Below the pieces are notes generated by a model that saw nothing but the letters and a program-made list of their open reading frames with translations, made no database searches and was not told where the DNA came from. Of a stretch of 64,000 nt of DNA, positions 13,884-51,300 are shown piece by piece; position 1 is the first letter of the stretch, and each line of letters opens with the position of its first letter. A program made the position numbers and the translations under genes. This stretch comes from Microbacterium sp. LWO12-1.2 (GTDB lineage Bacteria; Actinomycetota; Actinomycetes; Actinomycetales; Microbacteriaceae): NCBI RefSeq assembly GCF_040675875.1, contig NZ_JBEGII010000001.1:3844001-3908000 (forward strand), in the 5' to 3' direction.

Positions 13884-14339
13884 TCAGCGCGAGGCGGTGG
13901 CCGTCTGCATGTTCGCGCCCGCGGTGATCGCGTCGAGTGCGCGGCGCAGCGACGAGCTGGACGTGTGCGCGGTGTAGGGGAAGTACACGACTTCTACGCC
14001 CACCTCGGCGAACTCACGCTCGAGGCGCAGCCCCTTCTCGGTGCCACGCCAGTCGTCGCCCTTGAAGAAGTGCGTGAAGCGCACGTCTTCCCACGCGTCC
14101 AGCTTCGACGGGCTCGTCTCGACGTAGACGTCGTCGACGAACGAGATGTGGCTGACGATCTCTGCGCGCTCCGCCGTCGGGATGACGGGCTCGATACCCT
14201 TCACCTGGCGCAGCATCTCGTCACTCACGACGCCGGCGATCAGAATGTCGCACTGCTGCTTGGCGTGACGAAGAAGGTTGAGGTGCCCGACGTGAAAAAG
14301 GTCGAAAGCTCCCGCGGCATAGCCGATACGCGTCCCCAT
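13884..14339 (-). CDS. cytidylyltransferase-like nucleotidyltransferase (TagD/GCT type)
   Basis: A 151-residue protein with the nucleotidyltransferase signature GAFDLFHVGH at residues 10-19 and FFKGDDWRGTEKG in the second substrate loop. Both are characteristic of glycerol-3-phosphate cytidylyltransferases, which make CDP-glycerol or related activated alcohols for wall polymers. The ATG ends at 14339 with GGGGAG upstream. Its transcript begins with the leader element shared with rmlA, which ties it to polysaccharide or teichoic-type polymer synthesis. A CDP-alcohol phosphotransferase gene lies at 22.4 kb and could use its product. Confidence 0.8.
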   Translation of the reverse strand: MGTRIGYAAGAFDLFHVGHLNLLRHAKQQCDILIAGVVSDEMLRQVKGIEPVIPTAERAEIVSHISFVDDVYVETSPSKLDAWEDVRFTHFFKGDDWRGTEKGLRLEREFAEVGVEVVYFPYTAHTSSSSLRRALDAITAGANMQTATASR

Positions 14340-14366
14340 GATCTCCCCAGATCAATAAATCCCCAG

Positions 14367-14416
14367 GGCGGATCCCCATCCGCCAGCGACTCCCACAGCC
14401 GCATCGGATCAGTCTA
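14367..14416 (-). promoter_or_regulatory. promoter and GGGG-loop leader hairpin of the cytidylyltransferase gene
   Basis: Reading the minus strand: -10 box TAGACT (14416-14411), six bases, then a transcript start near 14404 with ATGCGGCTGTGGGAGTCG. Next comes a 7-bp stem GGCGGAT-GGGG-ATCCGCC (14384-14367), which ends 27 bases before the gene's ATG. The whole segment aligns without gaps to the one before rmlA. The ATG at the predicted 5' end opens an out-of-frame ORF that runs into the gene. Confidence 0.6.
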
Positions 14417-17434: not shown

Positions 17435-19297
<1,863 letters not shown>

Positions 19298-19301
<4 letters not shown>

Positions 19302-19369
19302 GATCCCCCTTGTGAAAACGTCGATGTCCATGGTGGCGTCGCGTGATCGACGGTTCCCCAACCGTCCAC
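19298..19369 (-). CDS. possible leader peptide of the rml operon
   Basis: A GTG-started ORF of 23 codons (beginning [10 protein letters not shown]) whose TGA overlaps the rmlA ATG as ATGA. GGGGG lies three bases upstream of the GTG, which is close for a ribosome-binding site. Its first codons form part of the GGGG-loop hairpin, so translation of the ORF would open that hairpin. There is no independent evidence that it is translated. It is reported because the wbaP-like gene has the same arrangement. Confidence 0.35.
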
Positions 19370-19398
19370 GACCCCCACAGTCGTTCCGCTCGACTCTA
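19349..19398 (-). promoter_or_regulatory. rml promoter and GGGG-loop leader hairpin
   Basis: On the minus strand: TAGAGT -10 box (19398-19393) whose first three bases are the stop codon of the upstream polymerase gene. A transcript start near 19386 is followed by CTGTGGGGGTCG and a 7-bp stem GACGGTT-GGGG-AACCGTC (19366-19349). It aligns without gaps to the leader at 14416-14367, with two compensatory base-pair changes in the stem. Confidence 0.6.
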
Positions 19399-20666: not shown

Positions 20667-21314
20667 TCAGCGAAGGTCTCCGCGGAACACGGCGACCTTC
20701 GCGCCGAAGAGATAGTCCACGGTGAGGGTGACGTCCTCGCGGTCGGCTTCGGCGATCGAGAACAGATAGGTGCCGTCGGCGGACTCGCCGGGAGCGAGCG
20801 ATCCTTCGAACGGAGCGCCGCCCGGCTGGGTCAGGATGCCCGCGGGTGCCCGGTCCTTGCCGGAGTAGGCATTCACGGCGATGTACTCCAGGTCGAGCGG
20901 CTCGGTGCCGGTGTTCACGACCCGCACCGTGGCGCGGATCGCAGGGCCAGAGGTCTCTCCTGCGGTGGTCGCCTCTCCCTGTACTGCCTGCACGCTCGAC
21001 AACGAGATCTCGATGCCTCCGTCGGCGACGATCGTCTCATCGGGTGCGACCGGTGACAGCTCGGCGAACGGGGCGTCGCTCTCCACTGGTGCCGGGGTCG
21101 GCGTCTGAGTGGGACGCGGGGCATCGGGGTTGAGGATGTCGCGCGGGGGCACGGTGGGCGTGGAGGAGGGCGACGGCGATGCCGATGTCGTTCCTGACAG
21201 CAGCGGCGGGATGACGAAGGCCGCTGCGATGGCCAGGGCGATCACCGCGAACAGGATCGAGAGCGTGATCCAGGCGCGCCGACGGTTCGGCGTCGACTCC
21301 TCGGTTGATGCCAC
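20667..21314 (-). CDS. membrane-anchored Ig-like (DUF4352-type) protein
   Basis: A 215-residue protein with a GTG start at 21314. One membrane helix (about 14-38) follows a basic N-terminus, then a Ser/Thr/Pro linker (about 45-80), then a beta-sandwich domain whose pattern (VRVVNTGTEPLDLEYIAVNAY, LAPGESADGTYLF) matches surface Ig-like domains such as DUF4352/Telomere-related folds. It is probably displayed outside the cell and may assist the polymerase encoded 14 bp downstream. A TAAACT -10 box (minus strand, about 50 bp upstream) could drive both genes. Confidence 0.7.
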   Translation of the reverse strand: MASTEESTPNRRRAWITLSILFAVIALAIAAAFVIPPLLSGTTSASPSPSSTPTVPPRDILNPDAPRPTQTPTPAPVESDAPFAELSPVAPDETIVADGGIEISLSSVQAVQGEATTAGETSGPAIRATVRVVNTGTEPLDLEYIAVNAYSGKDRAPAGILTQPGGAPFEGSLAPGESADGTYLFSIAEADREDVTLTVDYLFGAKVAVFRGDLR

Positions 21315-21377
21315 CGTTTGACCCCCATGCTGATTCCCCGTGGCGCCTCCCGCGAGAACGGACGGCGTGATCAGAGT

Positions 21378-22365: not shown

Positions 22366-22407
22366 TATAGTGAAGGCTACATTTCGGCGCCGCCTGGGGG
22401 AGTTGTC
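22366..22407 (+). promoter_or_regulatory. promoter of the CDP-alcohol phosphotransferase operon
   Basis: A TATAGT -10 box at 22366-22371 predicts a transcript start near 22378 and a 30-nt leader that ends in CTGGGGGAG (ribosome-binding site) before GTG 22408. The 97-bp gap is shared with the divergent GT2 gene. Confidence 0.55.
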
Positions 22408-23151
22408 GTGTCAGAGATCCGAGCCGCCATGTCGCGGCTGAAGCAGGCGCAGAAGTCATCGAAGGGTGCGGCGGCGTACTCGCGATACGTCAATCGCCCG
22501 CTCGGCCGACCGCTCGCGGCGACCGCCTACGTGATGGGGATGACCCCGACGCAGGTCACGATGGTCAGCGCGCTCTGCACGCTCAGTGGTGTCGCGTTGA
22601 TCGCGCTGCTCACGCCGACCGTGTGGTCGTCGGTGCTCGTGACGGTGCTCCTCGTCCTGGGGTATGCGCTCGACTCGGCCGACGGGCAACTCGCCAGACT
22701 CACCGGCACCGGCTCGCTCGCCGGAGAGTGGCTCGACCATTTCTTCGACTCGCTCAAGCTCGCCACGATCCATCTCGCGGTCCTCGTCTGCTGGTTCCGG
22801 TTCTACGAGATCGACGAGGTCTGGCTGCTCGTGCCGCTCGCTTTCGCGGCGATCGCGAACACTTTCTTCTTCGGCATCATGGCCGCCGACTTCCTGCGTC
22901 GCATCCACCGCCTGCAGGCGCCTGTCGCGACCGCGGAGGCGCCGCGTGAGGCCTGGCGATCGGGCTCGCTGTACTCCCTCGCCGTGATCCCGACGGACTA
23001 CGGATTCCTCAGTCTCTCGTTCGTCCTGCTCTGGTGGCAGCCTGGATTCATGGTGGTCTACACGGGTCTCGCGGCCATCAACGCGCTCATGCTGCTCCTC
23101 GCGGCGATGCGCTGGTATCGCTCCATCCGTGGATTGGATTCCCATGCCTGA
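22408..23151 (+). CDS. CDP-alcohol phosphatidyltransferase family membrane protein
   Basis: A 247-residue membrane protein with about six helices and the complete CDP-alcohol signature: D89-x2-D92-G93-x2-A96-R97, G106, D110, D114. It transfers a phospho-alcohol from a CDP-activated donor to a second alcohol. In a polysaccharide locus it may make a lipid or attach a polyol phosphate; the cytidylyltransferase at 14 kb is a possible donor source. The GTG start has GGGGGAG upstream. Its stop overlaps the next ATG by eight bases, so three genes (22408-25560) form one operon. Confidence 0.88.
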   Translation: MSEIRAAMSRLKQAQKSSKGAAAYSRYVNRPLGRPLAATAYVMGMTPTQVTMVSALCTLSGVALIALLTPTVWSSVLVTVLLVLGYALDSADGQLARLTGTGSLAGEWLDHFFDSLKLATIHLAVLVCWFRFYEIDEVWLLVPLAFAAIANTFFFGIMAADFLRRIHRLQAPVATAEAPREAWRSGSLYSLAVIPTDYGFLSLSFVLLWWQPGFMVVYTGLAAINALMLLLAAMRWYRSIRGLDSHA

Positions 23152-36694: not shown

Positions 36695-36781
36695 TATTGT
36701 TGGCGCGGATGCGTCTATGGGGGACGCGGGGGAATCCAATTCTGCTTGCCGTTTCTTCGGCAGTGCCTATGGGGAGGCGCT
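36695..36781 (+). promoter_or_regulatory. promoter and GGGG-loop leader of the large exported protein
   Basis: A TATTGT -10 box (36695-36700) precedes ATGCGTCTATGGGGGACG at 36709, which matches the transcript start of the cytidylyltransferase gene at 14 of 18 bases. GCGTC (36711-36715) pairs with GACGC (36723-36727) around TATGGGG. AGTGCC (36762-36767) pairs with GGCGCT (36776-36781) around TATGGGGA, and this second hairpin holds the ribosome-binding site and ends at the ATG. Confidence 0.55.
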
Positions 36782-39700
36782 ATGCGAGTCCAACGACTCG
36801 ATTCAATCGACCGTGACTTCGATTCACGATCAGGTATGTTCCGTCGTATCGCTCTGGGAGTTGTCGCCGTTCTGGTGATCACGCTTCTGGGTTCTGTGCT
36901 CACCGCACCGACAGCGAACGCTGACACCGCACCGACAGATCCGGCCTTGCCTGCGACGGTGAGCGCTGATCCGCTCCCGACGACGCAGATCAACGGGATC
37001 GTCTGGGCGCAGGCGGTTGCGGGCAACAAGGTGTACGCCGGCGGACAGTTCACCAGCGCGCGCCCCGCCGGGGCCGCCGCCGGTACGAACGAGACGCCGC
37101 GTTCGAACCTGCTCGCGTACGACCTGGCGACCGGTGTGCTCGACGCATCGTTCAACCCGCAGGTCAACGGCCGCATCCTCGCGGCTGCTGTCTCGCCGGA
37201 TGGATCGCGCCTCTACATCGGCGGTGGATTCACGGCCGTCGACGGACAGAACCGTTACCGTCTCGCGGCGTTCAACACCGCCACGGGCCAGCTCATCGCG
37301 AACTGGACACCCGGCACCAACACCGTCGTCCAGGGCATCGTCGCCACGGACACGACGGTGTATGTGACGGGTGAGTTCTCGAACATCAACAACACCACCC
37401 GCACCGGTGTCGCCGCGCTGAGCGCCTCGACCGGAGCGGTCCAGGCCTTCAATCCGGTTCTCGCCGGCGGATACGGCGTCCGTGCCGTGGTCGTCTCGCC
37501 TGACAAGTCGAAGGTCGTCATCGCAGGCTCCTTCACCTCGACCAACGGTTCGACGAACCCCGGGCGCGGCATGGCCGCTCTCGACGCGACCACGGGCACC
37601 AGCCTGCCCTGGGCTGTGAACAGCGTGATCCGCAATGCGGGCACGGGGTCCTCGATCTACTCGCTGGCCTCCGACGGCGACAGCGTGTACGGCAGCGGCT
37701 ACGACTTCGGTGGTTCCAAGACCGAGGACGACTTCGAAGGCGCGTTCCGGGCCAACTGGAGTGACGGATCGATGGTCTGGATGGAGGACTGCCACGGTGA
37801 CACCTATTCGGTGTATCCGACCGGCGGCGTCCTCTACACCGCAGCGCACTCGCACTACTGCGGCAACATCGGCGAGTTCCCGCAGCTCGACCCGTGGAAC
37901 TTCAACTTCTCGCTCGCGTTCGACAAGAACCCGTCGAACCGTACGATCACCCCCGACATCTACGGATACCGCAGCTTCACCGGGAACCCTGCAGCGCGTC
38001 TGCTGCACTGGTACCCGACCTGGCAGCCGGGAACCGTGTCCGGTATGAGCCAGGCCGCATGGTCGGTGACCGGCGGTGGCGACTACCTTGTCTATGGCGG
38101 CGAGTTCACTGCCGTGAGCGGCACTGCTCAGCAGGGTCTGGTGCGCTTCGCGAAGCCGGGCACAGCGCCGAACAAGATCGGTCCCACGATCCAGGGTGGC
38201 GCCTACCAGATCAGCGCGCAGTCCTTCCGCGCCGGTCAGGTGCGTGTGGCGTGGCCCGCGAACTATGACGCGGACAACGCGAACCTCACGTACGAGGTGT
38301 ACCGCCGCGACATCGCGCAGCCCGTCTACACGACGACCGCTGACTCGACGTTCTGGGTGCGCCCGCGCATGATGTACTCCGACACCGCGGTCACAGCCGG
38401 ACAGGTGTACGAGTACCGCGTCAAGGTGTCGGATGCGAATGGCAACTCGACGACCTCCGACTGGACGAGCGTCACGGCAGCCGCGACCGGGACCGCCAAC
38501 ACCTACAACTCCGCGATCCTCGATTCCGCGCCGAAGTACTACTGGCCGCTCAACGAGGCGACAGGCACTTCGGGAATCGACTGGGTGACGGGCAACGACC
38601 TGAACCTGGCCGGCGGCACGACGCGCGGTCTGCCCGGTCAAGTGCAGGGTGAGACCTCGGCATCCACCGGGTTCAACGGCTCGAACGGAACCGCCGCGTC
38701 GACCTCCTCCGAGGTCGCACCGAACGTGTTCTCCGTCGAAGCGTGGTTCCAGACCACCAGCACCAGCGGCGGCAAGATCGTGGGCTTCGGCAACAAGTCG
38801 ACCGGTGTCTCCGGCAGCTATGACCGCCACATCTACCTGAGCAACTCCGGTCAGATCACCTTCGGCGTGTACCCGGGCACAGCACGGACGCTCACCAGCG
38901 GCAGTGGCTACAACGACGGCAAGTGGCATCAGGTGGTGGGCACGATGAGCTCCGCCGGAATGGTGCTGTACGTCGACGGCGTCCGCGTGGGGACGCGCAC
39001 CGACACCACGACCGGTCAGGACTACACCGGCTACTGGCGAGTCGGTGGTGACAGCCAGGGCGGCTGGCCCTCTGCGGGTTCGTCGAACTTCCTGAACGGA
39101 CGCATCGCGGACGTCGCCGTTTACTCCACCGCGCTCTCGCGCAACGATGTCGACGCGCACTGGGTTGCCTCCGGGCGTACTTCGGCGCTGCCGGCGGCTC
39201 CCGCAGACGCATACGGCAAGGCTGTGTACGACCTCGATCCGGCGTTCTACTGGCGCCTGAACGAGAGCACCGGTACGACGGTTGCGGCGGACGCCGGACG
39301 CGACGGGAGCACCGGTGGGTACAAGACCAACGGCACCGCCTCGATCCAGCGCGGGCAGACGGGAGCGATCGCTGGCACGACGAACAAGGCGATCCGATTC
39401 ACCTCGTCCAAGCTCGGCTCGACGTGGAACAACCGTCAGAGCGTGATCAGCGATCGTCAGTACGTCTCTCCGAGCACGTACTCCATCGAGACCTGGTTCA
39501 AGACGACGTCCACAGGCGGCGGAAAGCTGATCGGCTTCGGCAACAGCAACTCCAACAACACCAACGCGAGCTCGAACTACGACCGGCACATCTATATGGA
39601 CTCGGTGGGTCGACTCAAGTTCGGTGTCTACAGCGGGGGAACGCAGATCCTGACGGCCCCGAGCACGTACCGTGACGGTCAGTGGCACCACGTGGTGGCG

Positions 39701-42235
39701 CAGCAGTCGGCGAGTGGCATGCAGCTGTTCGTGGACGGCGTAGAGGTCGCCTCCAACGGCGTCTCGACGGCCGACCAGTACAGCGGCTACTGGCGCCTCG
39801 GCGGCGACACGACCTGGGAAGGCGACCCGTTCTGGGTCGGCACCCTGGACGAGCCCGCGGTGTACTCGGCTCCGCTGACGGCGAGCCAGATCCTGCAGCA
39901 CTACCAGCTCGGTACGACGGGTACGCCCAACGAGCTCCCGGTGGCGCAGTTCACTTCGGCAACGACCGACCTCTCCGTGGCTTTCGATGCCGCGGCCTCG
40001 AGCGACCAGGAAGGGCCGATCGCGGCCTACACCTGGAACTTCGGGGATGGGCAGACCGGTACCGGAGTGGCCCCGACCCACGTCTACGACGCGGCAGGCA
40101 CCTACACGGTGACTCTGACGGTTCGCGACGGCGGATCTCTGACCTCCTCGGTCAGCCACGAGGTCATCGCCCGCAACCCGAATGTGCTGCCGACGGCGGC
40201 GTTCACCGAGACCACGGACTTCCTTGATCTCGCTGTTGACGCCTCCACCAGTGCAGACACGGACGGCTCGATCGCCGCGTACGCCTGGAACTTCGGTGAC
40301 GGCGGCGCCGCCACCGGTGTCACGGCGGCGCACACCTACACCGCCTCCGGCACCTACGAGGTGTCGCTGACAGTGACGGATGACCGTGGCGGCTCTGCGA
40401 CGACCACCAAGTCGATCGTCGTGGAAGCGGCCAACGTCGCACCCGTTGCGATCGCGAATGTGGTCCGCGGCGCTGATGGCATGTCCATCACCGCAGACGG
40501 AACCGGGTCCAGCGACAGCGACGGCACCGTTGCTGCCTACGCGTGGAGCTTCGGCGACGGAGCGACGGCCACGGGCGCTACCGCGACGCACACCTACACG
40601 TCAGCCGGCACGTACACCGTGACGCTCACGGTGACGGATGACGATGGGGCGACCCACCAGGTCACCGCATCTGTCACAGTGGCGCCGGCCGCCACCGAGG
40701 AAGTGATCGCAAGGGATGCGTTCGAGCGCACCGCCGCCTCGTCGTGGGGGACCGCGGACGTCGGTGGCAGCTGGACGACCACCGGCGGGGCTGCAGCCTT
40801 CTCGGTGGGTGACGGGGTGGGCAAGTTCTCCCTGGCGCCGGCCGCCACTCGCGAGGCGCGCCTGGCCGGAGTCTCCGGCACGCAGACGGTCACCTCGCTG
40901 ACGATCGCCTCGAGCAACGTGACTAACGGCGGAGCCTTCAACCTGACGGTCAACGGCCGCCAGGTCGGCAGCGATACCTACTCGGGACGCATCAAGATCG
41001 AAGCCAACGGCGCGATCAGGCTCTACCTGCTCCGCAACGAGACCGCGATCGGAAACAGCGTCGTGCTCTCCGGCAACTACACCGCCGGCGAGAAGCTGTC
41101 GGCCGCGTTGTCGGTCCGTGGCACCTCGCCGACCACCCTCTCGCTGAAGGTGTGGCGCACGGGCACCACTGAGCCGGTGAACCCGCAGCTGCAGGCAACC
41201 GACACCACGGCTGCGCTGCAGGTCGCGGGTTCGGTGGGTCTGAAGATGGCGGTCAGCTCGGTCTCGACGGTCTCGACCGTCATCTCGATCGACGACTACA
41301 AGGTCGTCACCGGGGCTGTCGTGGTTCCGGTGAATCAGGCCCCGACCGCATCGTTCACCTCGTCGGCCAACGGCCTCACCGCCAACGTCGACGGCAGCGG
41401 TTCGACGGATTCCGACGGAACCATCGCGTCCTACGCCTGGACCTTCGGAGATGGCGGCACCGCGACAGGAGCAACGGCTTCGCACGCCTACGCGGCAGCG
41501 GGCACGTACAACGTGACGCTCACGGTGACGGATGACAAGGGCACGACCACCTCGGTCACGAATCCTGTGACGGTGACGGCTCCGGTCGTCGATCCGCCGG
41601 ATCCCACGGGTCCCGTGCCGCTGGCGACTGACGAGTTCGATCGGGCCGTGACGGGAGGTTGGGGAACGTCCGACCTGGGTGGAGCCTGGGCGACAACCGG
41701 GGGCAATCCCGCATTCTCGACCGCAGGAGGACAGGGTCTCATCACCCTGGCTCCCTCCCAGACCCGTGAAGCCCGTCTGGCAGTGTCTGCGACCAGCACG
41801 GTCCTCGATACGACCTTCGCGGCGGATGTCGCCTCGGTCGGCGGCACCACCAGCATCACGCTGCACGGGCGCACGGTCGGCACGTCGGTCTACTCGGCCA
41901 GGATCCGCCTCGAGCCCGCAGGTGTTGTCCGGTTGTACATCCTTCGGGATGAGACGGCCATCGGCAACAGCTTCGTGCTGCCGACCAGCTACGCGGCTGG
42001 CCAGGTGCTGCATGCCCGGCTGTCGGTAACCGGCACCAGCCCGACGACGATCGCCGCAAAGGTGTGGGTCGAGGGGCAGACCGAGCCCGCCACGTGGCAG
42101 CTGCAGGGCACGGATGCCACGGCAGCCCTTCAGGCCGCCGGTGGGGTCGGAATCAAGACGTCGGTCAGCTCGGCGTCCACGAACGCGGCGACGAAGATCT
42201 CCTTCGACCGGTTCGCGGTGGTCGTCCCGCAGTAG
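36782..42235 (+). CDS. giant secreted multidomain protein (propeller, FN3, LamG, PKD, jelly-roll)
   Basis: A 1817-residue protein from ATG 36782 with a signal peptide cut near residue 47 (ANA-D). The domain order is: a beta-propeller-like region (about 55-460) with repeating AVSPDGSRLYIGG-type blades; FN3 (about 467-570); two LamG domains (about 576-800 and 812-1046); three PKD domains (about 1053-1301, each with YxWNFGDG-like motifs); a jelly-roll domain (about 1308-1511); a fourth PKD (about 1518-1600); and a second jelly-roll (about 1611-1817). There is no sortase motif or membrane anchor. It is probably a surface or matrix adhesin that binds carbohydrate. A 1253-codon antisense ORF is a frame shadow. 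Confidence 0.88.
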   Translation: MRVQRLDSIDRDFDSRSGMFRRIALGVVAVLVITLLGSVLTAPTANADTAPTDPALPATVSADPLPTTQINGIVWAQAVAGNKVYAGGQFTSARPAGAAAGTNETPRSNLLAYDLATGVLDASFNPQVNGRILAAAVSPDGSRLYIGGGFTAVDGQNRYRLAAFNTATGQLIANWTPGTNTVVQGIVATDTTVYVTGEFSNINNTTRTGVAALSASTGAVQAFNPVLAGGYGVRAVVVSPDKSKVVIAGSFTSTNGSTNPGRGMAALDATTGTSLPWAVNSVIRNAGTGSSIYSLASDGDSVYGSGYDFGGSKTEDDFEGAFRANWSDGSMVWMEDCHGDTYSVYPTGGVLYTAAHSHYCGNIGEFPQLDPWNFNFSLAFDKNPSNRTITPDIYGYRSFTGNPAARLLHWYPTWQPGTVSGMSQAAWSVTGGGDYLVYGGEFTAVSGTAQQGLVRFAKPGTAPNKIGPTIQGGAYQISAQSFRAGQVRVAWPANYDADNANLTYEVYRRDIAQPVYTTTADSTFWVRPRMMYSDTAVTAGQVYEYRVKVSDANGNSTTSDWTSVTAAATGTANTYNSAILDSAPKYYWPLNEATGTSGIDWVTGNDLNLAGGTTRGLPGQVQGETSASTGFNGSNGTAASTSSEVAPNVFSVEAWFQTTSTSGGKIVGFGNKSTGVSGSYDRHIYLSNSGQITFGVYPGTARTLTSGSGYNDGKWHQVVGTMSSAGMVLYVDGVRVGTRTDTTTGQDYTGYWRVGGDSQGGWPSAGSSNFLNGRIADVAVYSTALSRNDVDAHWVASGRTSALPAAPADAYGKAVYDLDPAFYWRLNESTGTTVAADAGRDGSTGGYKTNGTASIQRGQTGAIAGTTNKAIRFTSSKLGSTWNNRQSVISDRQYVSPSTYSIETWFKTTSTGGGKLIGFGNSNSNNTNASSNYDRHIYMDSVGRLKFGVYSGGTQILTAPSTYRDGQWHHVVAQQSASGMQLFVDGVEVASNGVSTADQYSGYWRLGGDTTWEGDPFWVGTLDEPAVYSAPLTASQILQHYQLGTTGTPNELPVAQFTSATTDLSVAFDAAASSDQEGPIAAYTWNFGDGQTGTGVAPTHVYDAAGTYTVTLTVRDGGSLTSSVSHEVIARNPNVLPTAAFTETTDFLDLAVDASTSADTDGSIAAYAWNFGDGGAATGVTAAHTYTASGTYEVSLTVTDDRGGSATTTKSIVVEAANVAPVAIANVVRGADGMSITADGTGSSDSDGTVAAYAWSFGDGATATGATATHTYTSAGTYTVTLTVTDDDGATHQVTASVTVAPAATEEVIARDAFERTAASSWGTADVGGSWTTTGGAAAFSVGDGVGKFSLAPAATREARLAGVSGTQTVTSLTIASSNVTNGGAFNLTVNGRQVGSDTYSGRIKIEANGAIRLYLLRNETAIGNSVVLSGNYTAGEKLSAALSVRGTSPTTLSLKVWRTGTTEPVNPQLQATDTTAALQVAGSVGLKMAVSSVSTVSTVISIDDYKVVTGAVVVPVNQAPTASFTSSANGLTANVDGSGSTDSDGTIASYAWTFGDGGTATGATASHAYAAAGTYNVTLTVTDDKGTTTSVTNPVTVTAPVVDPPDPTGPVPLATDEFDRAVTGGWGTSDLGGAWATTGGNPAFSTAGGQGLITLAPSQTREARLAVSATSTVLDTTFAADVASVGGTTSITLHGRTVGTSVYSARIRLEPAGVVRLYILRDETAIGNSFVLPTSYAAGQVLHARLSVTGTSPTTIAAKVWVEGQTEPATWQLQGTDATAALQAAGGVGIKTSVSSASTNAATKISFDRFAVVVPQ

Positions 42236-43423: not shown

Positions 43424-44956
43424 TCAGTATGCCCCGCTGGGCTGCACCATGACCTTGGCGGTGCGCCACATGATCTGCAGGTCGTTCATCACGGACCAGT
43501 TCTCGACGTAGCGAAGGTCGAGACGCACGCTCTCGTCCCAGGTGAGGTCGCTGCGGCCGGAGACCTGCCACAGACCCGTGATCCCTGGCTTGATGTACAG
43601 GCGGCGGAAGACGGTTCCGTCGTACGCCGTGACCTCGCTGGGGAGTGGCGGACGCGGCCCGACGACGCTCATGTCGCCGATCAGCACGTTCCAGAACTGC
43701 GGCAGCTCGTCGAGCGACAGCTTGCGCAGGATCCGGCCCACGCGGGTGACACGAGGGTCATCCTTCATCTTGAACAGCAGACCGGCGCCTTCGTTCTGCT
43801 CCTTGAGCGCCGCGAGCTGCTGCTCTGCGTCGGTCTTCATGGAACGGAACTTCACCATCTTGAAGCGGCGGCCGTCGCGGCCGACGCGCTCCTGGAAGAA
43901 GAAGACAGGGCCCGGGGAGTCGATCTTGACTAGCAGCGCGAGCGCCGGGGTGATCAGACCGATCGGGATCAGGGCGAGCGTCGCGACGGCGATGTCGAGA
44001 GCGCGCTTGAGCAGGTGCTGGCCCCCCTCGTAGCGAGGGATCTGGACCTGGATGAGGGGAAGCCCTTCGACCGGTGCGAACGAGATGCGGGGACCGGCGA
44101 CGTCGGTGAGTCGGCTCGACAGCACCAGCTCGGCAGCCGTGCCCTCGAGCTGCCAGCTGAGCCTCTTGACGAACTCCGGATCGCCCTCGGGGCGGCTCGC
44201 GACGATGATGGTGTCGGCGCCGAGCTCGGCCGCGACCGTCGACACGGTGTTGACGTTGCCCAGCACCGGGAACAGTGCATCGCGGATCTCGATGTCGCGG
44301 GCGTTCCCGTCGAGCAGAGTCGCACCGACGACCTGGTAGCCCGAGGCGCCGATCGGGTGGAGCGTGCGCACGACGTACTCGACGTCGTCCTTGTTTCCGA
44401 CGACGAGCGTGCGCGATGCGAAGCGTCCGTGGCTCCGCTGGATCTGGAGCCAGTGGCGCCAGATCCAGCGGGTCACGAGGAGAGTCAGCACACCGACCGG
44501 CAGCCCCAGCAGCAGCGTCAGTTGCATCGACTCCCAGCTCAGGAGCACCGCGACGATGGCGATGATCCCGAATGCGAGACCGCTGGCGTGCACGACGCCC
44601 CGGTACTCGGTGGCACTCGCACGGAAGAGCGCGGCGTCCCGCGTGTGGAGTGCGCTGAGCATGAGGTACCAGAGCGCGGCGAGGGGGACGCCGGCACGCA
44701 GGACCTCAGGCACGGCGACGCCGCTGATCAGCTGGACGGTCGCGGTCAGGCCGACGGCGAACAGGATGACAGCTGCATCCGTGACTCGCAGTCTGATCCG
44801 ATAGCGACGCTCCCACTGACGGCGTCGTTCCAACGTTGCGGAGGCGCGCGGCGTGACCACGGTGCGCGTCACCGACTTGGTGGCTCTCGGTGCGGCGACC
44901 GGCACAAAGCCGGATCCCGTGCGAGTGATGCTCAGGGCATCCTCGACGGAGGTCAT
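43424..44956 (-). CDS. WbaP-type polyprenyl phosphoglycosyl transferase
   Basis: A 510-residue protein from the ATG ending at 44956; the much longer ORF upstream is a shadow. Four membrane helices lie at about 55-165, a CoA-binding-like Rossmann domain (TLVVGNKDDVEYV) in the middle, and the bacterial sugar transferase domain at about 330-510 (KRALDIAVA, FKMVKFRSM, LRKLSLDELPQFWNVL, SVVGPRPPLP). It moves sugar-1-phosphate from a nucleotide sugar to undecaprenyl phosphate and so starts repeat-unit assembly. Its ATG overlaps the stop of a 17-residue leader ORF. Confidence 0.92.
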   Translation of the reverse strand: MTSVEDALSITRTGSGFVPVAAPRATKSVTRTVVTPRASATLERRRQWERRYRIRLRVTDAAVILFAVGLTATVQLISGVAVPEVLRAGVPLAALWYLMLSALHTRDAALFRASATEYRGVVHASGLAFGIIAIVAVLLSWESMQLTLLLGLPVGVLTLLVTRWIWRHWLQIQRSHGRFASRTLVVGNKDDVEYVVRTLHPIGASGYQVVGATLLDGNARDIEIRDALFPVLGNVNTVSTVAAELGADTIIVASRPEGDPEFVKRLSWQLEGTAAELVLSSRLTDVAGPRISFAPVEGLPLIQVQIPRYEGGQHLLKRALDIAVATLALIPIGLITPALALLVKIDSPGPVFFFQERVGRDGRRFKMVKFRSMKTDAEQQLAALKEQNEGAGLLFKMKDDPRVTRVGRILRKLSLDELPQFWNVLIGDMSVVGPRPPLPSEVTAYDGTVFRRLYIKPGITGLWQVSGRSDLTWDESVRLDLRYVENWSVMNDLQIMWRTAKVMVQPSGAY

Positions 44957-45006
44957 GCCCCGGCCCCGAAAGCCGTTGATGTACGCAGAATTCCCCAGTG
45001 CGACAT
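44953..45006 (-). CDS. possible 17-residue leader peptide of the wbaP-like gene
   Basis: From the ATG ending at 45006 the ORF reads MSHWGILRTSTAFGAGA and its TGA overlaps the wbaP-like ATG by ATGA. GGGGAAA lies four to ten bases upstream as a possible ribosome-binding site. It would couple leader translation to the main gene. There is no proof of translation; the same ATGA arrangement and a W-G at codons 4-5 occur before rmlA. Confidence 0.4.
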   Translation of the reverse strand: MSHWGILRTSTAFGAGA

Positions 45007-45174
45007 GGTTTCCCCAGTGTTTCCCCAGACCGCGAGCAAAACGCTTGCGGCGTTCGTCCGCATTCCCGACCCCTCGGGTTCCCGCTGCCATCTCCGTGAT
45101 CCCACACCACGGATTGCGATCGCCGTCCCACACGGCGGTGCTTGCAGCGGGCACTGCAGACTCTCGACAGCATA
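45007..45174 (-). promoter_or_regulatory. long 5' leader with G-loop hairpins before the wbaP-like gene
   Basis: A TATGCT -10 box (45174-45169) predicts a start near 45162 and a leader of about 200 nt; this covers the 315-bp gap between the two starts. On the transcribed strand CGCCGT-GTGGG-ACGGCG (45137-45121) and CCGTG-GTGTGGGAT-CACGG (45112-45094) form hairpins with GGG in the loop. CTGGGGAA occurs three times at 45029-44991. Confidence 0.45.
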
Positions 45175-49450: not shown

Positions 49451-50074
49451 CTAGAGCAGCCCCCACTCCATCGCGAGGGTGACGGCGCGGGTGCGGTCCG
49501 ACACTTCGAGCTTCTCGAACGCATGCAGAAGGTGCGTCTTCACGGTCGCCTCCCCGATGAAGAGCTCCTTGGCGATCTGCGGGTTGCTGCGGCCCGCGGC
49601 GACGAGTCGGAGCACGTCGAGTTCACGGGGGCTCAGCTGCGGTCGGGCGGGCCGTTCCCTCCGCATCCGCGTGACCAACGTGGCTGCGATCGAGGGCGCG
49701 AGCACCGTGTGCCCTTCCGCGACCGAGCGGATCCCGGCGACGATCTCCTCCTGGGGCGCCGCCTTCAGCAGGTACCCGCTGGCTCCCGCCTCGATCGCGC
49801 CGAGGATGTCGTCGTCGCTCTCATAGGTGGTGAGCACGAGCACGCGCACGCCGGGAAGCTCCTGGGTGATCCGCGATGTGGCCTCCGCGCCGGTCAACGT
49901 CGGCATCCGCAGGTCCATCAGCACGACGTCGGGGCGCAGCGCCGTGGCGAGTTCGACCGCTTCGAGTCCGTCGGATGCTTCGCCGACGACCTGCAGCTCC
50001 TCGTCGAGCGACAGCAGACCGACGATCCCGGAGCGCACGATCGGGTGGTCGTCCGCGACGAGGACACGGATCAT
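49451..50074 (-). CDS. NarL/LuxR-type response regulator
   Basis: A 207-residue protein: receiver domain with D8-D9 and phospho-acceptor Asp54 (VVLMDLRMP), then a LuxR-type helix-turn-helix (LSPRELDVLRLVAAGRSNPQIAKEL). Its ATG overlaps the stop of the kinase gene by ATGA. It is the last gene of an ABC-transporter/two-component operon and probably controls that transporter. Confidence 0.93.
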   Translation of the reverse strand: MIRVLVADDHPIVRSGIVGLLSLDEELQVVGEASDGLEAVELATALRPDVVLMDLRMPTLTGAEATSRITQELPGVRVLVLTTYESDDDILGAIEAGASGYLLKAAPQEEIVAGIRSVAEGHTVLAPSIAATLVTRMRRERPARPQLSPRELDVLRLVAAGRSNPQIAKELFIGEATVKTHLLHAFEKLEVSDRTRAVTLAMEWGLL

Positions 50075-51249
50075 GACACCTCCTGCAGCATGGGGAGAGG
50101 CACGCGGACCGTGAGTGTGGTGCCGCAGACCTCGCCGTCGGTCACATCCAGGGTGCCGCCGACGAGCCCGACACGGTCACGCATGCCCGCGAGTCCGAAG
50201 CCATCGCCGTGGCCCAGACGCACACCGCCGAGGCCCCGCCCGTCGTCGCTCACGACGAGCACCGCATCTTCGCCCACCAGCAGGGTGACGGAGGCGGAGA
50301 CGGCGGCGGCATGCTTGCGGACGTTCGCCAGTCCCTCCTGGGCGCAGCGCAGCAGCACGACCTGGATGTCGCGCGGTACTGGCTGCACGGACGTCGTCAC
50401 CGCGACCGGCAGCCCGGTCTCCCTGCTGAATCGCTCGCCGAGCCTGCGCAACGCTTCGGAGAGCGAGCCGGACGGGTCGGCGGCCGGTGACTCCACGACG
50501 ACCAGGGCTCTGGCCTCTCGCAGGGCGTCGCGCGCCGCTTCCTCGATCAGGGCGACGGTGTCTGCGGAGCCGTCGAGCCGCCCGCGCTCCGCGAGCATCA
50601 CGATGCTGGTGAGGCTCTGGGCGATCGTGTCGTGCACGTCCCTCGCGAGGCGCGCTCGTTCGGCCGTTGCACCGGCTTCGCGACTCGCCGCCTCGAGCCC
50701 CGCCTGCGCTGCGGTGAGATCGGCGAGCAGGCGCTGGCGCTCCGTGCCCCATTCGGCGATCCGTGTGATCCACAGCCCCAGGGCGAGGCTGAACGCCGCG
50801 GACAGCCCGGCGGTGGTGATACCGGCGAGCACGAGTTCCGGCGCGAAACCACCCCAGAACGAGTAGGCGAAGGCGATGACCGTCGCGTTCACGAGCGTGA
50901 CGATGATCGACTGGGCGGTCGATCGGGACGTCATCCAGATGAGGGGCAGCACCAGCGTCTGCAGCAGGAGCATGTTCGGCTCGATCGACGTGCCGAACGC
51001 CATCAGCGCGATCAGGGCGACCTGGATCACCGCCGAGGCGAGTGGGGAGGGGTCCGGCGCCTCGCGGAAGCTCACGTAGCGGCGGGCGCCGAACGCGTAG
51101 ACCGCGACGAGGCCGCAGGCGGTGGCGACCAGCATCCAGGGCGAGGCGGCGCTGCGCGAGGGCAGGGTGAACGCGAGTACCAGGATCACGACGAAGAGCG
51201 CGGTGGTCGCGAGGTCCCAGCCCAGATGTTCCTTGCGGACGGTGCTCAT
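50071..51249 (-). CDS. sensor histidine kinase (NarL-partner, HisKA_3 type)
   Basis: A 392-residue kinase from the ATG ending at 51249; a GTG three codons upstream is possible. About five membrane helices fill residues 10-165, followed by the phospho-acceptor helix ERARLARDVHDTIAQSL (His206) and an ATPase domain with DDGRGLGG and GFGLAGMRDR. The lack of a large sensor loop suggests that it senses membrane or lipid-borne stress, as in LiaS/DesK-like kinases. It works with the overlapping response regulator. Confidence 0.92.
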   Translation of the reverse strand: MSTVRKEHLGWDLATTALFVVILVLAFTLPSRSAASPWMLVATACGLVAVYAFGARRYVSFREAPDPSPLASAVIQVALIALMAFGTSIEPNMLLLQTLVLPLIWMTSRSTAQSIIVTLVNATVIAFAYSFWGGFAPELVLAGITTAGLSAAFSLALGLWITRIAEWGTERQRLLADLTAAQAGLEAASREAGATAERARLARDVHDTIAQSLTSIVMLAERGRLDGSADTVALIEEAARDALREARALVVVESPAADPSGSLSEALRRLGERFSRETGLPVAVTTSVQPVPRDIQVVLLRCAQEGLANVRKHAAAVSASVTLLVGEDAVLVVSDDGRGLGGVRLGHGDGFGLAGMRDRVGLVGGTLDVTDGEVCGTTLTVRVPLPMLQEVS

Positions 51250-51300
51250 GACGACCACTCTCGCATCATCGTGGCGGTGCTGCTCGTGACGGAGTCGTGC

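Follow-up and report, generated by a model that had tools for sequence, protein, structure and literature searches.

Little is understood of how Actinobacteria control their genes after transcription; to our knowledge Hfq is missing from these bacteria, and CsrA is missing from the genome considered here. Three described systems come closest to the arrangement that we report. In the Csr/Rsm system, as outlined in the part of PMC7652899 drawn on here, CsrA/RsmA recognizes GGA in hairpin loops, one site lies over the Shine-Dalgarno sequence in glgC, and psl is a target. For the small RNA 6C/B11, the cited part of PMC10470900 connects B11 with a six-G tract in the 5' UTR of eccB4, and excerpts of PMC10470900, PMC12395582, and PMC4046766 give lipooligosaccharide synthesis as the target process in M. 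marinum. RosA, according to the cited part of PMC8216469, is a G-rich small RNA opposed to C-rich small RNAs, with regions 1 and 2 of its G-rich sequence in single-stranded form. The leaders described below are apparently one visible piece of a larger and undescribed regulon with likely trans-acting RNAs. Among the open-licence papers listed, no title or opening line of an abstract describes these leaders or RNAs, and neither PMC11109978 nor PMC8632094 mentions Microbacterium, Actinobacteria, GGGG, rmlA, or polysaccharide in its main text.

The window, that is, the whole 64-kb stretch of DNA that was analysed, holds two closely matched leaders on the minus strand, one before a tagD-like cytidylyltransferase gene and one before the rml operon. 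The initial annotation had aligned segments 14416-14367 and 19398-19349 without gaps, and both the positions and the alignment were confirmed, as were the stems GGCGGAT-GGGG-ATCCGCC and GACGGTT-GGGG-AACCGTC. Both stems pair perfectly, and two compensatory pair changes set them apart. The spacing from TAGACT or TAGAGT to CTGTGGGRGTCG, however, is 12 bases in both copies and not six as had been given. Moreover, the CTGTGGGRGTCG block is itself a hairpin, CGRCT-GTGGG-RGTCG, that was absent from that annotation, as were the third hairpin of the tagD-like leader, the further leaders of the window, and the apparent trans-acting side (multi-loop RNA loci, palindrome, and C-rich RNA) described below.

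In the tagD-like leader, a putative promoter with the -10-like box TAGACT (14411 to 14416, read from the sequence and aligned with relatives) is followed by hairpin 1 (CGGCT-GTGGG-AGTCG, 14387 to 14401), hairpin 2 (GGCGGAT-GGGG-ATCCGCC, 14367 to 14384), and a CTGGGG run that lies outside simple hairpins and is retained in close relatives (14361 to 14366). A third hairpin, GATCT-GGGG-AGATC or, with one more pair, TGATCT-GGGG-AGATCA (14339 to 14354), covers the ribosome-binding region and reaches the start codon, whose A is its last base. The gene (13884 to 14339, minus strand) encodes 151 aa with a cytidylyltransferase-like domain (PF01467, E 2.1e-14), and NCBIfam equivalogs all fall under their cut-offs. 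The rml leader, likewise on the minus strand, consists of a -10-like box TAGAGT of a putative promoter (19393 to 19398, read from the sequence), hairpin 1 (CGACT-GTGGG-GGTCG, 19369 to 19383), and hairpin 2 (GACGGTT-GGGG-AACCGTC, 19349 to 19366) upstream of rmlA (18429 to 19301; PF00483), with GDP_Man_Dehyd/Epimerase and RmlC/RmlD-type genes downstream. With up to three mismatches, the joint leader pattern has exactly two matches in the 4.1-Mb genome, which are these leaders, and the reversed-pattern control has none. CTGTGGGRGTCG alone matches six times; at the other four matches there is no second hairpin, and the sequence looks, on inspection, like coding sequence. Zero gathering-score matches to Rfam 15 occur within the 64-kb window, in line with the earlier remark that no named RNA family of this form was known to its author.

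The leaders could also be read at the DNA level, as an operator in which TGGGG sites are repeated (an MraZ-type box, for example), and TGGGR motifs do lie 17 bp apart in both leaders. MraZ boxes are TGGGN repeats with a 10-bp period, unlike the 17-bp leader spacing, and the flanking arms change yet stay complementary, as they would in RNA. We consider a DNA operator very improbable.

Protein searches covered 58 relatives, with this genome designated G000. GGGG-loop hairpins lie upstream of the tagD-like gene in all 12 of the 12 orthologs from the same genus with at least 75% identity (one of them partial), and in three tagD-like orthologs (L017-L019) they are still found upstream with unrelated stems, including different stems near the start codon. 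A protein-alignment scan of genome contigs confirmed 471 loci, of which 80 were taken (41 titled Microbacterium and 39 others), and the region counted was 110 nt upstream plus 6. Among these 80 of 471 loci, the 41 Microbacterium leaders, which are not independent events because more than 20 of them are near-identical, have at least two G4 runs upstream in 37/41 cases versus 2/41 for C4 runs, and a GGGG hairpin in 35/41 versus a CCCC hairpin in 0/41. The corresponding values for the other-titled loci in the same sample are 9/39 versus 8/39 for runs and 8/39 versus 1/39 for hairpins. Two G4 runs are lacking at the Microbacterium-titled loci L101, L108, L110, and L132, and L113 and L125 have G4 runs and no hairpin by the rule.

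Close relatives, 32 in number, have an almost unchanged leader sequence, of which 27 versions are distinct. In the distinct set, hairpin 2 is the only hairpin with two-sided changes (3/8 pairs); one pair of hairpin 1 appears as GU, GC, or AU while 4/5 pairs are invariant, and 5/6 pairs of hairpin 3 are invariant. Pairing extends to 97.7% of cells in this alignment, a value reached by 0/500 shuffles; three pairs changed on both sides, which 22/500 shuffles matched, and further pair types were not above shuffles (146/500). In diverged species (L103, L111, L115, L119, L124, L129, and L143), the stems are unrelated and the loop is still GGGG, and the L115 tagD-like leader carries three GGGG hairpins in tandem. 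Upstream of the tagD-like gene, most of the 41 Microbacterium loci (among the 80 of 471) have three to five G4 runs, an observation in favour of an RNA G-quadruplex built from successive G-runs. Most runs, however, have complementary arms of their own on either side and so lie in apical loops, and there is little probability that a quadruplex accounts for the leaders.

The leader is linked to rmlA only narrowly, being found in 4 of the 30 rmlA upstream regions listed (L039-L042) and absent from the other 26; the stems of the L040-L042 leaders differ. Single GGGG hairpins also occur upstream of cytidylyltransferase relatives at L130 (Arachnia) and L136 (Tessaracoccus), hinting that the leader may have spread outside Microbacteriaceae.

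Two further leaders were identified in the window. On the plus strand, a putative -10-like box TATTGT (36695 to 36700, read from the sequence) precedes two hairpins found by a hairpin scan of the window, TGCGTC-TATGGGG-GACGCG (36710 to 36728) and AGTGCCT-ATGGGG-AGGCGCT (36762 to 36781), the second of which abuts the ATG at 36782. The gene that follows (36782 to 42235) encodes a secreted-looking PKD/laminin-G/beta-propeller protein of 1817 aa, referred to here as the adhesin, which shares 49% identity over 1250 aligned columns with its L115 ortholog, whose start also has GGGG hairpins. The fourth leader extends over about 45137-44957 on the minus strand, as read by eye, with two hairpins also recognized by eye (CGCCGT-GTGGG-ACGGCG, 45121 to 45137; CCGTGGT-GTGGG-ATCACGG, 45094 to 45112) and three CTGGGGAA runs outside simple hairpins (44991 to 45028, from a reading of G-run clusters). 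It precedes a priming sugar transferase with a Bac_transf domain (43424 to 44956, minus strand; 510 aa from this start) that is 66% identical to the L094 ortholog, whose leader has three GGGG hairpins.

The same gene set recurs in relatives. The 80 loci (of 471 confirmed) contain 58 GGGG-hairpin clusters, 32 of which are cytidylyltransferase leaders by reading, and 12 of the other 26, chosen by eye, were inspected. Nine of these 12 precede family members or orthologs of envelope genes in the window: adhesin relatives (L100, where the sole match of the fragment is a beta-propeller repeat, L103, and L115), relatives of a DUF4352-like lipoprotein (L079, placed in the family by eye as its protein has no Pfam match, L118, and L129), relatives of a CDP-alcohol phosphatidyltransferase (L094 and L119), and the sugar transferase ortholog (L094). 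The remaining three (L140 and L097 twice) lie in coding-looking or unclear sequence. In the window itself, two G4 runs and no simple GGGG hairpin precede the gene for the DUF4352-like lipoprotein (21300-21365, minus strand), and the CDP-alcohol phosphatidyltransferase gene has a single CTGGGGGA run near its start (22380-22410, plus strand). The initial annotation had proposed that envelope genes are controlled by a cis-acting RNA or nascent-transcript element. In related genomes, copies were found before tagD-like, adhesin, lipoprotein, sugar transferase, and CDP-alcohol phosphatidyltransferase genes, with varying stems and retained loops, and this comparison supports reading the two leaders as such an element.

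Clusters of at least two GGGG hairpins number five in the 64-kb window, three of them just before gene starts, and two in 359.5 kb of flanking sequence from the same genome, neither of which is convincing as a leader by eye. For five other loop cores, the flanks contain 5 to 18 clusters and the window 0 to 2, as expected from the lengths of the two. Clustering alone is common, as G-run clusters precede open frames at 22 places in the 359.5-kb flank that look coding by eye. Over the whole of the 80 loci, GC-rich loop cores form 81 to 125 clusters, more than the 58 of GGGG, and CCCC is not an independent control in this count because it equals the other strand. Whole-locus counts thus give no support for enrichment, and position-specific counts were therefore used.

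The same loop occurs outside genes. R1, a covariance model for one GGGG hairpin with a 7-bp stem, made from 30 hand-chosen hairpins that include both leaders, had eight matches at E <=10 over this genome with a best E of 0.06 (150 of 741 first-look candidates scored), and single R1 matches by themselves are not significant. The top four, with E 0.06 to 0.29, are the two leaders (24.3 bits for the tagD-like hairpin 2 and 23.9 bits for the rml hairpin 2, both in the training set) and two paralogous intergenic loci, L151 (G000:C1 about 2433238-2433367, plus strand) and L154 (G000:C1 about 1941016-1941143, plus strand); the other four look like coding sequence or single hairpins. In L151 and L154, a -10-like box is followed by GTAGCT-GGGG-CTAC, a second GGGG hairpin, and a long hairpin with a GGGG tip, and none of their Rfam 15 matches is near the gathering score. 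L189, on the plus strand, is a third member of this family, with hairpins that were read by eye and fail the hairpin rule of the palindrome survey described below; its relatives are L166, L176, L182, L191, L193, L201, and L202, among which L201 lacks the second GGGG loop, unlike the other RNAs of the family. A second RNA-like type is represented by L190 on the minus strand, with relatives at L160, L163, L167, L174, L177, L181, L184, and L192, and when the L190 RNA is folded at minimum energy, a loop position of its G-runs is not clear. These four loci are apparent multi-loop small non-coding RNA genes, and the motif is what connects such putative decoys with the leaders.

It could be argued that the leader hairpins act alone, with no specific partner, as mRNA stabilisers or as structures that govern ribosome access, and such roles would suit their positions, close to the presumed 5' end of the transcript and across the ribosome-binding region. 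However, the GGGG loop survives replacement of the stem and is common to the RNA-like loci outside genes, which points to recognition of the loop and makes stand-alone hairpins an improbable explanation.

L151 and L154 both lie downstream of an identical perfect palindrome, GTCCCCCATTTGGGGGAC, of the form GTCCCCC-N4-GGGGGAC. With up to two mismatches it is present in 37/58 genomes (34/35 of the genus and 3/23 others), compared with one match in 1/58 genomes (G053) for a reversed-palindrome control. This genome has four palindrome sites, each with an adjoining G-run RNA-like locus (L151, L154, L189 on the plus strand, and L190 on the minus strand). We examined 52 palindromes, a selection from the scan rows made up of those in 30 scan loci, 20 hand-chosen loci, and L151. 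GGGG hairpins lie within 230 nt of the palindrome at 24/52 sites versus 3/52 control windows; the 28/52 sites that have none by the rule include the L189 site of this genome. A further RNA-like type that carries GGGG(G) runs, for example GAGGCCGGGGGCGGC... GCCGACGGGGGCCGAG, adjoins the palindrome at L183, L187, L203, L206, and L207.

Two neighbouring genes may be mentioned in this context. A LuxR-type response regulator and histidine kinase pair is located near the envelope cluster of the window (49451-51258, minus strand) and is a possible candidate for acting at the palindrome. Divergent from the L189 GGGG-loop RNA, across a shared palindrome, lies a gene for a small protein of 127 aa beginning MDRTLVF (G000:C1:1708939-1709319; L189:1537-1920, minus strand), which its neighbourhood makes a candidate loop reader. 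It has no Pfam match over the cut-off and a weak OB_ChsH2_C match in the L166 copy (E 0.065). The protein is present in 13/58 genomes and absent from the leader-bearing genomes G008, G012, and G015; it has 178 relatives, and those named among the 120 listed are nearly all from Microbacterium, one being titled Streptomyces sp. A structural model with mean pLDDT 80.7 predicts a beta-rich fold with a C-terminal helix and has no PDB match at E 0.001.

Across the L190 palindrome from the GGGG RNA, in the direction of a cold-shock gene, we found an RNA-like element with C-rich loops, GACGCACCCTCCGGTCGTC then GGCCCTCATCGC-TCCCCCC-GCGGTGAGGGCC (G000:C1:3361091-3361145), which diverges from the GGGG RNA at the shared palindrome in this genome and in relatives. 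Its structure is conserved: 98.9% of cells are paired across 12 copies (10 distinct), and four pairs changed on both sides (0/500 shuffles). A covariance model of it (R2) matched 16/58 relatives, all of the genus, 15 of them at E <=1.5e-6 and one at 0.025, and 5/248 genomes of the order, again all of the genus. The element resembles 6C RNA, which has two hairpins with about six C in each loop; its own loops are TCCCCCC in hairpin 2 and CTCC in hairpin 1 as drawn. Rfam 6C (RF01066) was rejected as its identity, with no match at E 1 in 12 palindrome loci or at E 0.001 in this genome (150 of 1612 candidates scored, in a search in which the C. glutamicum control genome also stayed under the cut-off). 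Other Rfam matches, all below gathering score, were also set aside: cspA at seven palindrome loci (best E 1.5e-7) represents the neighbouring cold-shock gene, and EAV_LTH over the L175 C-rich hairpin (E 0.0043) and gyrA in L190 (E 0.3) were taken as chance. A loose C-rich pattern in the named loci yields matches that resemble chance and lie in coding sequence. In L168, L175, L204, and L208, from species that have no R2 match, the palindrome adjoins a variant of the C-rich hairpin whose stem is longer (CTGCCCTCATCGCC...GGCGATGAGGGCAG).

This C-rich RNA might itself be the reader, its C loops pairing with the GGGG loops of the leaders and the GGGG RNAs serving as sponges in an all-RNA circuit. 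Its divergence from the GGGG RNA at a shared palindrome and its conserved structure are consistent with this possibility, as are CCCC-loop hairpins near 15/52 palindromes versus 1/52 control windows (20/52 versus 7/52 by a looser C-loop rule) and R2 matches in 9/12 genomes with the tagD-like leader. Precedents are offered by B11 with eccB4 (PMC10470900), 6C/B11 (PMC12395582), and RosA (PMC8216469), in the excerpts cited. However, leader-bearing G008, G012, and G015 have no R2 match, one C-loop hairpin lying near a G012 palindrome. In cofolding, a model that leaves kissing loops outside, the C-rich RNA was clearly no better than mononucleotide-shuffled sequences in 7/8 targets, and for rmlA 5/40 shuffles were equally good. 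Strong stems around a four-base loop would also be expected to hinder pairing. We therefore regard the C-rich RNA as an unlikely reader.

The interpretation that we favour, with slightly better than even confidence, is a post-transcriptional regulon with a Csr/Rsm-like layout, in which multi-site leaders are bound by a trans-acting reader of GGG(G) loops and small RNAs resemble decoys. Comparison of genomes establishes the leaders, the conservation of loops with changing stems, the gene set, the multi-loop RNA-like loci, and the palindrome as its components; from these we infer transcription, binding, the direction of control, the decoy role, and the nature of the reader. Each 5' leader would carry several G-runs, mostly in hairpin loops and one over the ribosome-binding region, and a trans-acting factor that recognizes GGG(G) loops would bind several of these sites at once. 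Because one site covers the ribosome-binding region, the bound factor would keep envelope and matrix genes from being translated or, less likely, promote their translation. Small RNAs encoded apart from the leaders, with up to three GGGG loops each, may soak up the factor as decoys. Their own control may come from a transcription factor that acts at GTCCCCC-N4-GGGGGAC, a palindrome that may parallel the GacA box.

CsrA was rejected as the reader, as PF02599 has zero matches in this genome; the family occurs in 24/58 relatives and, among leader-bearing genomes, is present in 7/12 and absent from 5/12. The reader would most likely be an RNA-binding protein other than CsrA, and two observations favour a protein: the short loop remains enclosed by a stem, and cofolding of the C-rich RNA was no better than shuffles in 7/8 targets. 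The C-rich-loop RNA could then be a competitor, or else the reader itself. More tentatively, and with some doubt, we suggest a CsrA-independent Rsm-like circuit in which an undescribed protein reads the GGGG loops, is titrated by the small RNAs adjoining the palindrome, and is countered by the competing C-rich RNA. Because its loop motif is defined, a circuit of leaders and decoys would provide a direct handle for fishing out an unknown RNA regulator, and its target genes are those of surface polymer and adhesin synthesis.

Compared with 6C/B11 (RF01066), the Microbacterium arrangement also has a C-rich-loop RNA and G-rich targets in 5' UTRs, but here the G-runs lie in conserved hairpins, multi-loop G-rich RNAs appear to exist, and the Rfam 6C model has no match in 12 palindrome loci or among the 150 of 1612 candidates scored in this genome. 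RoxS/FsrA-RosA of B. subtilis and RsaI of S. aureus are similar in setting a stand-alone G-rich small RNA against C-rich ones; unlike RosA, GGGG here is mostly in hairpins, and the C-rich RNA adjoins its possible sponge. The likeness to Csr/Rsm lies in a short purine loop motif that is repeated several times per leader with one copy over the ribosome-binding region, in several multi-loop RNA loci with the same motif (a likeness of sequence and structure), and in exopolysaccharide and matrix targets. In contrast to Csr/Rsm, the loop here is GGG(G) and GGA is not constant: many loops read GGGGA, but rml hairpin 1 (GTGGGGG) and the L115 hairpins (CCGGGGGG) contain no GGA. Because CsrA is absent here and from 5/12 leader-bearing genomes and GGA is inconstant, the proposed circuit would not be Csr itself, and if it is real, the Csr/Rsm layout arose here with a different reader.
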